64,000 bases of DNA from Flavisolibacter longurius (GTDB lineage Bacteria; Bacteroidota; Bacteroidia; Chitinophagales; Chitinophagaceae): contig JABUMY010000002.1 of assembly GCA_013327885.1 (NCBI GenBank), positions 310,001 to 374,000 on the forward strand, given 5' to 3'. A program made the translations under genes and the position numbers. Each line of letters begins with the position of its first letter. Positions within the stretch are counted from its first letter, which is position 1. Shown one piece after another: positions 16,439-44,728 of this stretch. The notes beneath the pieces are model-generated. The model did no database searches. It had not been told where the DNA came from and saw only the letters and a program-made list of their open reading frames with translations.

Positions 16439-16476
16439 GCGGATGGGCGGATAGGTGTATAGGTAGATATGCGGAT
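16439..16476 (+). repeat. Left arm of an octamer-built inverted repeat inside the candidate origin
   Basis: The segment from 16439 reads as imperfect 8-bp units such as GCGGATGG, GCGGATAG, GTGTATAG, GTAGATAT and GCGGATGT. It pairs with 16633-16670 at 31 of 38 positions. Confidence 0.75.
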
Positions 16477-16632
16477 GTGCGGATATGCGAATTTGTAGAT
16501 GAAGCGAAGTTTCCGGGGCAAAGGGTAACTGAATGCCATACATTCCTCTTCACTACATATATATAGTATCGCTTGACACATTTCTTATGTATGCCAATCC
16601 ATGTATTCAACCCGGCAACCCAACATTCGCCT

Positions 16633-30618: not shown

Positions 30619-30700
30619 ATGCTAATGTGCTAATTTGATAAGGTGATAATGAGATCTTATCTGCATCAATTATCACCTTATCGAATTACCGAATTATCAA
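30619..30700. repeat. Period-8 inverted repeat between gcvT and comB
   Basis: Left units ATGCTAAT, GTGCTAAT, TTGATAAG, GTGATAAT; right strand-reversed units TTTGATAA, TTCGGTAA, TTCGATAA, GGTGATAA. The core stem gataaggtgataat (30637-30650) pairs perfectly with 30669-30682. It could act as a terminator or processing hairpin for gcvT. Confidence 0.75.
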
Positions 30701-36734: not shown

Positions 36735-37538
36735 ATGAATACCATCATTGTTCCCACGGATTTTTCGCCGGCGGCCGATAACGCCGCGGAATACGCTGCA
36801 AAGCTGGCCCAGCGGTTGAACGCTTCTGTTCTCCTGTTGCATGTATACCAGTTGCCGGTTCCCATGACCGATTATCCCGTGCTTATGGTAACCGTAGAAG
36901 ACCTGAAAAAAGGTGCCGAGGAAGGCTTGAACAGAACGCTGGAAGCGGCGCAGCTAAAATATCCCGGTGTAACGTTTCAGGTGGAAAGCCGCCTGGGCGA
37001 TGTGGCCACCGAAATAGAAGACGCCAGCAAGGAGCGAGATGCGTTTGCCCTTGTGGTAGGCACCAAGGACCTCAATGGGTTTGAACGGTTTTTGTTTGGC
37101 GACACCACCATCTCTCTGATCAAAAATTCTACTTTCCCGGTGATTGCCGTTCCGGAAAGTTACAATGCCGGCGTGCCGCAGAACATGGTGCTGGCCACCG
37201 ATTTTACAAACGCAGCTGATATTCCCACCGGCACCATTGCGGGTATTGCCGGTGTACTGGAAGCCAACCTGCACGTGGTGCATGTAGAAGAAAAGGAGAG
37301 CAAGTATTATCCCGAAGAGCTGATGCAGGCTTTTGGGGGCATCAACGCATCGTACCATGCCATCAAGGACGATGATGTGGCCGAAGGACTAAAACATTAT
37401 GTGCAGCAAAACAACATCGACCTGGTGCTGGTGCTTCCGCACAAACACAATTTATACGAACGCCTGTTTTTTAAAGGACACACCAAAGGCATTTTGCATG
37501 CGATGCCCGTGCCGGTGATGAGCCTGAAATCTGAGTAG
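36735..37538 (+). CDS. Universal stress protein, tandem UspA domains
   Basis: A 267-residue protein with two UspA folds. Domain 1 (about 1-145) is well conserved: NTIIVPTDFSPAADNAAEYAAKLA, then FALVVGTKDLNGFERFLFGDTTISLIKNSTFPVIAVPE, with an ATP-binding-type GxxG-like loop that is not fully canonical. Domain 2 (about 148-267) is more divergent. Such proteins accumulate under starvation or stress; biochemical roles are unclear. The stop codon (TAG) is also the first triplet of a 30-nt repeat arm, so the following element begins exactly at the gene end. Confidence 0.9.
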   Translation: MNTIIVPTDFSPAADNAAEYAAKLAQRLNASVLLLHVYQLPVPMTDYPVLMVTVEDLKKGAEEGLNRTLEAAQLKYPGVTFQVESRLGDVATEIEDASKERDAFALVVGTKDLNGFERFLFGDTTISLIKNSTFPVIAVPESYNAGVPQNMVLATDFTNAADIPTGTIAGIAGVLEANLHVVHVEEKESKYYPEELMQAFGGINASYHAIKDDDVAEGLKHYVQQNNIDLVLVLPHKHNLYERLFFKGHTKGILHAMPVPVMSLKSE

Positions 37539-37565
37539 GCAGTAAGCAGTAAGCAATAGGCAGTA
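37533..37565 (+). repeat. Left arm of inverted repeat enclosing the S23 gene
   Basis: 33 nt made of 7-bp units (AGTAAGC, AGTAAGC, AATAGGC). It pairs with 37999-38031 at 32 of 33 positions. It overlaps the uspA-like stop codon. Confidence 0.9.
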
Positions 37566-37589
37566 TTTGTAACAGTCTTTTCGACACTT

Positions 37590-37982
37590 ATGAGTTATAA
37601 AACACTACTTGCGTATCAGAAAGCGTTTGCGCTTGCCATGAAAATTTTTAATGTCACAAAACGTTTTCCAAAAGAGGAATTGTTTGGTTTGACAGGACAG
37701 ATAAGACGGTCTTCCCCCTCTGTTTGTTCGAATATGGCTGAAGGTTATCGTAAAAGACGATATGAAGCGCATTTTGTGAGTAAACTCACCGACGCTGACA
37801 CAGAAAATTCGGAAACCGAAGTTTGGCTGGACTTTTCCTTAGCCTGCGAATACATTACGGAAGAGGAGTATAATGCACTTTATGCCGACGCCGAAGAAGT
37901 CGGACGCATGTTGGCATATATGATTGAGCACCCTTCTAAATTTCTTTCACAAGCAGATAAAAATCTAAAGACTAAGAAATAA
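37590..37982 (+). CDS. Four-helix-bundle protein (S23 / 23S rRNA intervening-sequence family)
   Basis: A 130-residue all-helical protein of the S23/IVP family: YKTLLAYQKAFALAMKIFNV, FPKEELFGLTGQIRRSSPSV, CSNMAEGYRKRR and the C-terminal ARRGEA-like region replaced by DADTENSETEVWLDFSLACEYI. In Leptospira and other bacteria the family is encoded within intervening sequences of 23S rRNA, and it is structurally related to the Avd protein of diversity-generating retroelements. Free-standing copies have no established role. This copy is AT-richer than its neighbours and is bracketed by 33-nt inverted repeats, which would fold the whole transcript into a stem with the gene in the loop. Confidence 0.85.
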   Translation: MSYKTLLAYQKAFALAMKIFNVTKRFPKEELFGLTGQIRRSSPSVCSNMAEGYRKRRYEAHFVSKLTDADTENSETEVWLDFSLACEYITEEEYNALYADAEEVGRMLAYMIEHPSKFLSQADKNLKTKK

Positions 37983-37984
37983 AA

Positions 37985-38009
37985 ATAGGCAGCTTTTGTA
38001 CTGCCTATT
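37985..38009. terminator. Hairpin just after the S23 gene
   Basis: Stem aataggcag (37985-37993) / ctgcctatt (38001-38009). It overlaps the start of the right repeat arm, so the arm can pair either locally or with the left arm 37533-37565. Confidence 0.55.
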
Positions 38010-38031
38010 GCCTACTGCTTACTGCCTACTC
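37999..38031 (-). repeat. Right arm of inverted repeat enclosing the S23 gene
   Basis: Reverse complement of 37533-37565 with a single mismatch. It ends one base before the asnS stop codon. Confidence 0.9.
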
Positions 38032-39480
38032 TTAAAACTCCGCACTCTTCGGCGTCCGGGGGAATGGGATCACATCGCGGATATTGCCCATGCCGGTTAC
38101 AAACTGCACCATGCGTTCGAAGCCCAGCCCAAAGCCGGCATGCGGTACGGTGCCAAAGCGGCGGGTATCGAGGTACCACCACAATTCATCGGTGGGAACA
38201 TGCATGGCTTTCATCCGTTCCACCAGCTTGTCGTACCGTTCTTCCCGTTGCGATCCGCCCACGATTTCGCCAATGCCCGGCGCTAAAATATCCATGGCGG
38301 CAACCGTTTCGCGGCCCGGTTCGCAACCCTCATCCTGCCGCATGTAAAACGCTTTGATAGCGGCGGGATAATTGGTAACGATCACCGGTTTTTTAAAATG
38401 CTTTTCTACCAGGTAGCGTTCGTGCTCGCTTTGCATGTCAATGCCCCACGAAACATCGTACTGGAACTTTTTCTTTTTGTAATGATTCGATTGCAGCAGG
38501 ATGTCGATCGCTTCGGTATACGTGATGCGTTCGAATTTATTGTCGGCAACAAACTGCAGTTTCTGTATCAGATCCAGCTCGCTGCGTTCGGTTTGGGGCT
38601 TGCTTTTTTCTTCTTCCAGCAAACGCTGGCGCAGAAACTCCAGGTCATCGGCGTTCTGTTCCATCACATACCTTATCAGGTATTGAATAAATTCTTCGGC
38701 AAGGTTGGCGTTGTCTTCCAGGTCATAAAACGCAGCTTCCGGCTCTATCATCCAGAACTCAGCCAGGTGTCTTGCGGTGTTAGAATTTTCGGCACGGAAC
38801 GTAGGGCCAAAGGTGTATATCTCACCCAGGCCGGTTGCACCCAGTTCGCCTTCCAGTTGTCCGCTTACCGTTAGGTTGGTGGCGCGGCCAAAAAAGTCTA
38901 CGGCAAAATCAATGCTGCCGTCTTCTTTACGGGGTGGGTTGTCGAAAGGCAGTGTGCTTACGCGAAACATCTCCCCGGCACCTTCGGCATCCGACGCTGT
39001 GATGATGGGTGTATGCAGGTAAAAGAATCCTTTCTCATTAAAAAATTTGTGCACGGCAAACGCCAGGGAGTGTCGAATGCGGAACACGGCAGCAAAGGTG
39101 TTGGTGCGAAAACGCAGGTGCGCTTTTTCACGCAAAAACTCCATGCTGTGTTTTTTGGGTTGCAGGGGGTAAGCTTCGGCATCGCTGTCGCCAAGGATCT
39201 CCAGGTCATCAGCTTTTACTTCCACTTTTTGTCCCTTGCCAAGCGACGCAATCAGTGTTCCTGTCACCTTCAGCGAAGCCGAAGTGGTAATGCGTTTCAG
39301 CAGTGCATCCTCAAACTTTCCCAGTTCGAGAACGATCTGCAGGTTATTGTTGGTAGAGCCATCGTTCAGGGCCACAAACTGGTTGTTACGAAAGGTGCGT
39401 ACCCAACCCATCACGGTTACTTTCTGATCCTGCGGCTCCGTTGCCAGCAGCTCTTTTATTTTAATGCGTTTGTTAAACAT
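38032..39480 (-). CDS. asnS: Asparaginyl-tRNA synthetase
   Basis: A 482-residue class IIb synthetase that charges tRNA-Asn. An N-terminal OB-fold anticodon-binding domain ([21 protein letters not shown]) is followed by the catalytic domain. Motif 2 is [21 protein letters not shown]-like, and motif 3 is [13 protein letters not shown] followed by [12 protein letters not shown], characteristic of AsnRS. Length is normal. A TATATTTG element ends 7 nt upstream of the ATG, implying a very short leader. The 3' end abuts the repeat arm of the S23 element. Confidence 0.97.
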
Positions 39481-43600: not shown

Positions 43601-44728
43601 ATGCGCAGAGTAGCGATAAATGAATTTTTAGCGGGATGTAAAAATGCCCTGGTGATCGATGTGCGGTCGCCGGCGGAATACAACCATGCGCATCTTCCCG
43701 GGGCCGTTAACCTGCCGCTTTTCAGTGATGAAGAACGGGCCGTGGTAGGCACCAAATACAAACAGGTCAGCCGGCAGGCCGCCATTAAGATCGGCCTCGA
43801 TTACTTCGGTCCCAAAATGCGGTTAATGGTAGAGGAGGTTGAAAAATCAGTAGGCAGTAGGCAGTCTGCAGTAAGCAGTGATAAAGCAGATACACCTACT
43901 GCTGATTGCCTACTGCCTACTGCCAACTCTGTTTATCTCTACTGCTGGCGCGGTGGCATGCGCAGCGGCGCCGTAGCCTGGTTGCTAAACTTGTATGGCT
44001 TTGAGGTAACAGTGCTGGCCGGTGGCTACAAAGCCTTTCGTCACTGGGTGCTGCAAACAAACGCGTATCCGTATCGGCTAAAGCTGGTAGGTGGTTATAC
44101 CGGCTCGGGCAAAACAGCCTTGCTGAAAGCGCTGGCACAAAAGGGTGAACTGATCGTAGACCTGGAGGCGCTGGCAAAGCACAAAGGTTCTGCCTTTGGC
44201 AACATTGGCATGCCGCCCCAACCTTCACAGGAAATGTTTGAGAACAACCTGGCGTGGACAATAGCCGAACGGCATCAGCAAGCAAACGCTTTTTTAGCAG
44301 AAGGTAGTGACGACAAAGCTATCTGGCTGGAGGACGAAAGCCAGCGCATTGGGCATGTAAACATTCCGCAACCATTTTGGAAAAACATGCGGCAGTCGCC
44401 GGTTTATTTCCTGGATATTCCGTTTGAAGAACGCCTGCAAAACATTGTAGCGGATTACGGAAATTTAGACAGGGAGCGGATGATAGCGGCCATTCAGCGG
44501 ATCGGCAAACGCTTGGGGCCCCTCGAAACAAAAACCGCTATCCAGTTTTTACAGGACGGCTCCATGGAAGAATGCTTTCGCATCTTACTGCATTATTACG
44601 ACAAACAATACCGGAAAGGCCTGCACAACCGCGAAGACCTTTCTTCTTTACTGACAAACATTACCTGCGAAAAAGTTTGTGTTAGCAATGCTGCCCTACT
44701 TTCGCAGGTTCAACCTCTTTCCAAATGA
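43601..44728 (+). CDS. mnmH: tRNA 2-selenouridine synthase (MnmH/SelU) with in-frame repeat insertion
   Basis: MnmH replaces sulfur by selenium at wobble 2-thiouridine, via a geranylated intermediate, using selenophosphate. The rhodanese domain (about 1-145) has the active Cys in YLYCWRGGMRSG (Cys115). The second domain carries a P-loop (GGYTGSGKTALLKAL) and WLEDESQRIGHVNIP. Residues ~83-108 (KSVGSRQSAVSSDKADTPT and on) are not family-like: they are encoded by a 75-nt palindromic heptamer repeat placed just before the catalytic strand, with the frame kept. The gene overlaps selD by 4 bp, forming a complete selenouridine operon. Confidence 0.94.
   Translation: MRRVAINEFLAGCKNALVIDVRSPAEYNHAHLPGAVNLPLFSDEERAVVGTKYKQVSRQAAIKIGLDYFGPKMRLMVEEVEKSVGSRQSAVSSDKADTPTADCLLPTANSVYLYCWRGGMRSGAVAWLLNLYGFEVTVLAGGYKAFRHWVLQTNAYPYRLKLVGGYTGSGKTALLKALAQKGELIVDLEALAKHKGSAFGNIGMPPQPSQEMFENNLAWTIAERHQQANAFLAEGSDDKAIWLEDESQRIGHVNIPQPFWKNMRQSPVYFLDIPFEERLQNIVADYGNLDRERMIAAIQRIGKRLGPLETKTAIQFLQDGSMEECFRILLHYYDKQYRKGLHNREDLSSLLTNITCEKVCVSNAALLSQVQPLSK
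43848..43922. repeat. 75-nt period-7 palindromic element inside mnmH
   Basis: Units AGTAGGC, AGTAGGC, AGTCTGC, AGTAAGC. The outer 16-bp stem (43848-43863 with 43907-43922) is perfect; an inner agcagt/actgct stem can also form. It is of the same family as the arms around the S23 gene. Confidence 0.88.

Follow-up and report, generated by a model that had tools for sequence, protein, structure and literature searches.

In the REPIN/RAYT system, as passages of PMC3116915 describe it, short inverted doublets that form hairpins are dispersed over the genome together with a repeat-associated gene for a cognate protein, and copies lacking the gene look as if they had been mobilized in trans. A second comparable arrangement is seen in the intervening sequences (IVS) of 23S rRNA, where an S23 open reading frame (ORF) lies between pairing ends. 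According to passages of PMC4990558, the Coxiella IVS carries tandem GACAGAT heptamers just upstream of its S23 ORF, its stem is excised by RNase III, and the origin of rRNA intervening sequences is called unclear. The same passages describe the S23 protein of Xanthomonas campestris as a toroidal homopentamer of four-helix bundles. This protein (XCC0516) has been solved as 2gsc, and the entries of both solved S23 relatives, 2rld and 2gsc, contain five chains each. We know of no function for S23 proteins.

Tandem heptamers have also been described without reference to this family. Passages of PMC4679880 report TAACTGA heptamers from Beggiatoaceae, Cyanobacteria and Bacteroidetes, in intergenic tandem arrays that in some cases follow stop codons and are lacking at related sites; these passages propose them as translational control sites, and say of their horizontal transmission that "no mechanism is evident", and the paper contains no mention of S23 or of four helix proteins. 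In two genomes of Xanthomonas, the genus that includes the 2gsc-bearing X. campestris, 186 and 183 dispersed GGGAATC arrays were counted, often as inverted pairs (70 and 75), and passages of PMC4692102, where S23 is not mentioned, read these arrays and GGGGA(T/C)T of Nostoc as G-quadruplex repeats. The relevant part of PMC5524665 has four helix bundle genes in a list, with no repeats. Among the open-access matches listed (titles, starts of abstracts and passages), none links S23 to dispersed heptamers. The STRR heptamers of cyanobacteria may be repeats of the same sort. In the palindromic elements of Rickettsia, a palindromic insertion is kept in frame inside a conserved gene; to our knowledge these elements have neither a cognate protein family nor heptamer arrays.

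The S23 element between usp and asnS

All coordinates without a contig refer to the window, the whole 64,000-nt stretch of DNA that was analyzed. G000 is the genome of the window, C22 the contig that holds it, and L-numbers designate S23 loci. The features of the locus are as follows:

36735..37538, + strand: usp, the upstream neighbor, universal stress protein (PF00582)
37533..37565, + strand: left arm, an inverted heptamer array of unit GGCAGTA/AGCAGTA, overlapping the usp stop codon
37590..37982, + strand: S23 / four helix bundle protein gene, 130 aa (PF05635 / TIGR02436)
37984..38009, + strand: small local hairpin AATAGGCAG-CTTTTGTA-CTGCCTATT, read by eye; a direct repeat shows the extra heptamer too
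37999..38031, - strand: right arm, repeating the left arm in inverted orientation up to the stop codon of asnS
38032..39480, - strand: asnS, the convergent downstream neighbor (PF00152)
43845..43928, no strand assigned: solo hairpin of GGCAGTA heptamers without S23, in frame within a rhodanese-domain gene (43601-44728)

The arms are 33 nt each, stand 433 nt apart and are 97% complementary (32/33); recomputation reproduced the pairing from which the initial annotation had started. They consist of tandem 7-nt units (TAGGCAG, TAAGCAG, TAAGCAA and TAGGCAG), and the hairpin directly 3' of the S23 stop is an extra heptamer unit in the opposite orientation. Their placement at two stop codons was likewise borne out, with the left arm overlapping the stop of usp, which ends at 37538, and the right arm extending to 38031, where it abuts the asnS stop (38032). 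The enclosed ORF, which had been described as a complete and AT-richer S23 gene, matches PF05635 with 115 bits and TIGR02436 with 107 bits, and its GC content is 0.40 vs 0.52 in usp and 0.51 in asnS. No transposase family is found among the Pfam and NCBIfam matches of this protein at E <= 0.001, and no catalytic domain is recognized in S23 among such matches. The RNA fold of the whole element has a z-score of -7.5 against 100 dinucleotide shuffles. Since the element is positioned between usp and asnS, it is no insertion in a 23S rRNA gene, and the description of it as a free-standing S23 element with pairing ends holds.

Paired arms and heptamer words at S23 loci

S23 is a widespread family. 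In G000 there are 10 matches to PF05635, nine of them above the cut-off; matches occur in 17 of the 18 genomes of the genus (G002 has none), in 235 of the 296 genomes of the phylum that were searched (221 above the family cut-off), and in many other phyla. The dN/dS ratio is 0.03-0.22 in 16 of 24 pairs, which indicates that the S23 genes are under purifying selection; in the other 8 pairs dS was saturated, and two of the 16 have a dS greater than 2. Phage carriage was considered and dropped, a relative's protein being without a match in 50,697 phage records. On cyanobacterial plasmids S23 was seen among CRISPR-Cas genes (L191, L192, L195), twice in the gap between cas6 and cas4 and once in that between cas10 and a Cmr3-family gene, and next to genes annotated as phage integrase, tyrosine recombinase or integrase (L189, L411, L412, L413).

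Whether other S23 genes have heptamer arms, a question raised by the initial annotation, can be answered affirmatively for most of those examined. Of the 195 S23 loci that we gathered, the genus contributed 78 and the phylum 30; a further 80 were named loci of many phyla (by record title Clostridia, Planctomycetes, Acidobacteria, Proteobacteria, Spirochaetes, Atribacterota, candidate phyla and others), and 7 came from cyanobacterial plasmids. L009, which is missed by the S23 profile built for this analysis, was left out beforehand, and 185 of the other 194 were kept after removal of one locus with fewer than 70 profile positions and 8 with flanks shorter than 120 nt. Inverted flanks with a pairing score of at least 15 are present at 151 of these 185 loci, which are not independent because most were picked by best HMM score and orthologous insertions are among them, vs 70 among 2220 pairs that combine the flanks of two loci. 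By set, the counts are 65/75 in the genus, 20/30 in the phylum, 59/73 in the named genomes and 7/7 on cyanobacterial plasmids. The element of the window scores 31, and in G000 as a whole 8 of 10 S23 loci reach at least 18, the exceptions being L009 (13) and L010 (9). The possibility that such arms stand beside unrelated genes at an equal rate was upheld in one part only: about 100 arrays do lie elsewhere in the genome, but in 1.25 Mb of G000 just 11 of 351 other ORFs of 300-700 nt have flanks pairing at 15 or more (7 at 20 or more).

The period of the arms is general as well. Same-base autocorrelation in the upstream flank is 0.371, 0.352 and 0.339 at lags 7, 14 and 21, with 0.26-0.30 at other lags, and the period-7 peak is absent from the S23 gene and from the distant flank. 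The words at the S23 loci of G000, read by eye, are GGCAGTA, AGTTCAA, AGTTGAT, GGCTGCT, GGGGTTT, GGTGAGT and GTTCGAT. At L007 in the same genome the arms have a 6-nt unit, GGTTTA, and no heptamer. L018 (G007, end of contig C36) has near-perfect inverted flanks of 130 nt at a contig end, probably an assembly artefact; together with L112, L125 and L153, which also have very long or contig-end palindromic flanks, it was kept out of the G:U, concerted-evolution and unit-order tests below. Arms match each other unit by unit beyond a unit shuffle with full re-search of the arms (mean 22.0 vs 15.7), and since the cross-locus control is in excess too (18.0 vs 13.9, that is 4.1 vs 6.3), only the difference between the two counts.

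Within the genus, the heptamer word goes with the S23 subfamily, also at unrelated sites. For this test the upstream arm of one locus was compared with the downstream arm of another, and pairs with homologous surroundings were left out. Motif similarity correlates with protein identity (rho 0.301 over 2058 pairs, the maximum of 1000 permutations being 0.128), and does so among pairs below 60% identity (0.259 vs 0.137). Upstream-arm similarity rises from 0.08 at less than 25% identity to 0.63 above 70%, vs 0.19-0.24 up to 70% and 0.34 above it in the spacer between arm and gene, which served as a linked control. Among loci of many phyla with less than 60% identity, no correlation was detected by 4-mers (rho 0.018, p 0.35); the loss of the link at this distance implies that the word drifts faster than the protein. 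In the 8 plasmid records compared, of 37 with a match to the subfamily of the window's S23, the cyanobacterial relatives have 45-50% identity, and 6 of 8 show GCAG-containing upstream units by eye, often 8 nt long and weak in L414; 6 of 8 have flanks pairing at 15 or more.

The GGCAGTA word illustrates this relationship at the level of genomes. Matches to its triplet with at most 1 mismatch number 78 in G000, 10 in G015, 4 in G006, 3 in G010 and 0 in the 14 others; the reversed control gives 8 in G005 and a single match in each of G002, G006 and G013. Among the S23 genes compared, the closest to that of the window is found in G015 (83% over 87 aa, truncated by a contig end); it has GGCAGTA on its upstream side and occupies a site other than that in G000. 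Long perfect GGCAGTA arrays lie at G000:C4:191561-191692 and G000:C12:6-123, one of them at a contig end, which suggests recent expansion and assembly breaks at repeats. Matches to GGTGARt are numerous in G000, G014, G017 and G010 (77 in the last); the reversed control of this pattern scores too (64 in G000), since reversal leaves a word that spells part of the array itself. S23 genes with GGTGAGT-type arms were found in G000 and G017. In three array-rich genomes the other listed S23 loci were then read for such an arm: G014 has one, G016 has a similar GGTGATT arm, and G010 has none at the 10 S23 loci read. G001, G009 and G011 have an S23 with a GGTGAGT-type arm, yet only 1, 5 and 6 GGTGARt matches. 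As G002 has 22 such matches without any S23 match, arrays can outlive or lack the gene.

Gene-less arrays and the histories of sites

In 1.254 Mb of G000 there are 107 arrays of period 7, vs 0-7 for periods 4, 5, 6, 9, 10, 11 and 13 and 27 for period 8, which is the next commonest after 7 and its multiple 14. In the window, period-8 arrays are seen at 16466-16495 (GATATGCG-like) and 30620-30649 (TGCTAATG/GATAAGGT-like). All but seven of the period-7 arrays (100/107) lie away from any S23 recognized by profile, a count that includes the array C11:536603-536632 beside L009 because the profile misses that gene, and only part of these roughly 100 arrays are inverted pairs. Gene ends and the intergenic class were taken from a simple ORF caller (>= 100 aa). 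Of the 72 arrays so classed as intergenic, 36 are no more than 10 nt from a gene 3' end, vs 10.5% of random intergenic positions; the excess near gene 5' ends is smaller (12/72 vs 8.5% random).

The 28-nt arm of the S23 locus L006 has 4 exact copies in 1.25 Mb, itself included, and 10 occurrences within 1 mismatch, in unrelated places, vs 0-2 exact and 0-5 within 1 mismatch for 11 other orders of the same units. To judge from this unit order, at least one kind of arm has been copied. The suggestion that the element is linked to the heptamers dispersed in this genome is upheld by these arrays, some of which keep the unit order of an S23 arm; when solo arrays were matched to the arm library of the genus, only 48 of 100 exceeded the 95% null. 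In S23-rich genomes outside the genus, array density is near background, with 0, 1, 3 and 1 arrays per 80 kb in G119, G207, G310 and G222. Four S23-null genomes gave 2 arrays in 320 kb, after removal of an N-run, and five S23-rich genomes gave 11 in 400 kb, of which 6 came from a single genome; the contrast weakly favors a link with S23.

Sites differ across the genus both by presence of an array and by its word, the words and site classes having been read by eye. The site downstream of asnS was compared in 16 genomes, with no usp detected at that place in G001 and G012. It holds the S23 element in G000, a broken S23 of another subfamily in G016, inverted arms of another word around a terminator in G006 and G010, and other arrays in G001, G008, G013 and G017; the empty sites that the initial annotation had thought to seek between the stress gene and asnS appear as an absence of arrays in eight genomes. 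At the parA site, compared in 18 genomes (parB went undetected in G006 and G011), the same TAGGAGAAG is followed by an S23 gene in G000 and in G010, whose ParA proteins are 99% identical; the two genes belong to different subfamilies, and that of G000 is broken by a stop. Between parA and parB, a similar terminator is retained in G001, G003 and G008, with differing words to either side of it, and the site is apparently empty in G007, G009, G013 and G014. At the L006 site in G010 one array is nested inside another. At L005/L058 and at L010/L049, homologous flanks enclose different S23 genes in each genome, the S23 genes not being aligned at the DNA level.

The solo hairpin of the window (C22:353845-353928) falls in a rhodanese-domain gene that reads as mnmH/selU-like and is followed by a selD-like ORF; the gene tolerates an in-frame hairpin whose word differs by species, a likeness to the Rickettsia palindromic elements. 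In 13 of 16 orthologues that were readable (L381, L384 and L390 gave no pattern match), the hairpin is present in 5, possibly as a remnant in G005, and absent from seven. Its point of insertion is between the MVEEVEK and YCWRGG stretches, and its words are GGCAGTA in G000, GGCAAT-like in G010, G015 and G011, and GATTGCA in G017.

Many S23 loci are kept at one site across species, so that movement must be slow. At the sites compared, neither a target-site duplication nor an event of insertion or excision was demonstrated; array-free sites exist, but the relatives are too diverged (G010 has about 80% DNA identity) to define junctions. The mobility that had been thought possible is supported, indirectly, by occupied, empty and swapped sites and by dispersed copies of the same unit order. 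Across orthologous loci there is no overall signal of concerted evolution (own-arm similarity 0.615 vs 0.598 for the same side of the ortholog, 54 pairs, p 0.25), so that the argument for concerted switches of word rests on single sites.

Known systems, competing explanations and wider meaning

The described systems each fail on a defining feature that was tested. As in REPIN/RAYT, there are dispersed inverted doublets with a short spacer, such as the solo hairpin of the window, and a cognate gene flanked by the same repeat; S23 is no REP-associated tyrosine (Y1 HUH) transposase and, in contrast to that system, the arrays are of tandem 7-nt units, the word changes by subfamily and the protein has no recognized catalytic domain. 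Compared with the 23S rRNA IVS, the elements here are free-standing between protein genes, have many copies per genome and are accompanied by dispersed gene-less copies. Insertion sequences and MITEs share the terminal inverted repeats and the dispersed gene-less relatives, and the transposase is lacking. A link to the Avd and reverse-transcriptase machinery of diversity-generating retroelements (DGRs), toward which the initial annotation pointed, is not supported: the S23 of the window is related to Avd by profile, yet falls below both cut-offs (35.9 bits vs 80 for the NCBIfam model NF033474, and 39.4 vs 40 for PF22296, bAvd), and reverse transcriptase (RVT_1) matches occur in just 6 of the 18 genomes of the genus, those of G000 lying on contig C51 and not on C22. 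G001, G006, G008, G015 and G016 have S23 genes and no RVT_1. Telomerase- or retron-like writing by a reverse transcriptase was discarded as well, 12 of the 18 genomes being without RVT_1.

What the data display is an S23 gene in the loop of a hairpin with inverted tandem 7-nt arms, a unit that within the genus goes with the S23 subfamily, and S23-less copies dispersed over the genome, often right after stop codons. We think it probable, with moderate confidence, that the locus belongs, as an autonomous copy, to a selfish repeat system similar to REPIN/RAYT, in which the partner protein is S23 and not a transposase. The S23 protein would recognize its own heptamer as a hairpin of single-stranded DNA or RNA, a binding suggested by the link between motif and subfamily and by the solved relatives 2rld and 2gsc. 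It would act on its own arms in cis and on solo copies in trans, and would drive or license copying to new places, often into or beside older heptamer hairpins. The cutting and copying may be done by host enzymes, which we propose because S23 has no recognized catalytic domain and reverse transcriptases do not regularly accompany it. Successive rounds, each with a shifted heptamer, could then produce the layered, motif-switching occupancy that differs between species. Several results weigh against this reading: the lack of G:U bias in the arms, the missing link of motif and protein below 60% identity across phyla, the mere 48 of 100 solo arrays above the null, the GGTGARt counts of G002, G010, G001, G009 and G011, the near-background array density outside the genus, the many S23 loci that stay in place, and the want of a demonstrated target-site duplication, insertion or excision. 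Because each known class fails on a tested defining feature, this would be a new kind of system, one that appears to work most like REPIN/RAYT, with a putative biochemical step.

Alternatively, S23 might bind arrays in its own transcript and at other mRNA 3' ends as a post-transcriptional regulator or RNA chaperone, with the arms forming an RNA stem cut by RNase III as in the 23S IVS and their spread being incidental. The strong RNA fold of the element and the arrays at gene 3' ends agree with this, as do the excised stem of the Coxiella IVS (in passages of PMC4990558) and the proposal of translational control for TAACTGA arrays (in passages of PMC4679880). Yet the mismatches in the arms have no G:U bias (184 G:U-compatible vs 206 incompatible transitions, p 0.29). 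Such a bias is expected of a maintained RNA stem; we accordingly rejected selection on an RNA stem, since the sequences do not indicate it over the long term, and lean weakly toward single-stranded DNA hairpins as the putative active form. Moreover, a spreading process is needed to account for copies that share one unit order at unrelated places and for a hairpin inserted in frame within a gene, and we regard the RNA explanation as unlikely.

The hairpins might also be made and homogenized by slippage and hairpin-templated repair, S23 merely persisting where it had landed. This would account for the unit-by-unit match of the arms beyond shuffle, to the extent that it exceeds the cross-locus control, and for words that differ by species on both arms in conserved surroundings, as in the rhodanese gene and at parA/parB of G001, G003 and G008. 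It leaves unexplained the arms at 151 of 185 S23 loci, the link between motif and subfamily and the peak of GGCAGTA in the two genomes with that S23, and the array counts of S23-null and S23-rich genomes (the latter drawn by 6 of 11 from one genome) also speak against it; we hold it distinctly unlikely. That the locus is a degenerate 23S rRNA IVS outside rRNA, now inert, we consider very improbable. The protein family and the layout with pairing ends are the same, and the Coxiella IVS has its tandem GACAGAT before the S23 ORF (again in passages of PMC4990558), but free-standing copies are numerous (10 in G000, with matches in 235/296 genomes of the phylum), S23 genes are under purifying selection, and GGCAGTA arrays go with their cognate S23. 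The rRNA-borne forms are more likely a special case of the free-standing ones.

Returning to the selfish repeat system, a broader version of it can be put forward tentatively, with a likelihood somewhat short of even. In it, S23 proteins would be the missing partners of bacterial heptamer repeats, each subfamily recognizing, spreading and rewriting its own 7-nt word without a dedicated transposase or reverse transcriptase. The heptamers of cyanobacteria, those with the word TAACTGA and perhaps GGGAATC of Xanthomonas would be arms or solo copies of S23 elements, and the S23-bearing IVS of 23S rRNA would be S23 elements that had landed in rRNA. In the phylum, 18 of 395 genomes contain TAACTGA triplets, and at 2 of 20 distinct loci examined (L277 and L287) the array is the arm of an S23 gene, which makes S23 a plausible vehicle for these repeats. 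The STRR heptamers would belong with S23 elements as part of this tentative reading, in line with the cyanobacterial plasmid loci, most of which have arms.

Several descriptions of heptamer repeats exist that offer no cause for them, and S23 is widespread without a function known to us. If each subfamily has its own heptamer, the family would gain a testable function and a readable code from protein to word. If true, the broader reading would also offer an origin for the intervening sequences of rRNA, and would point to a system that spreads repeats without a recognized transposase.
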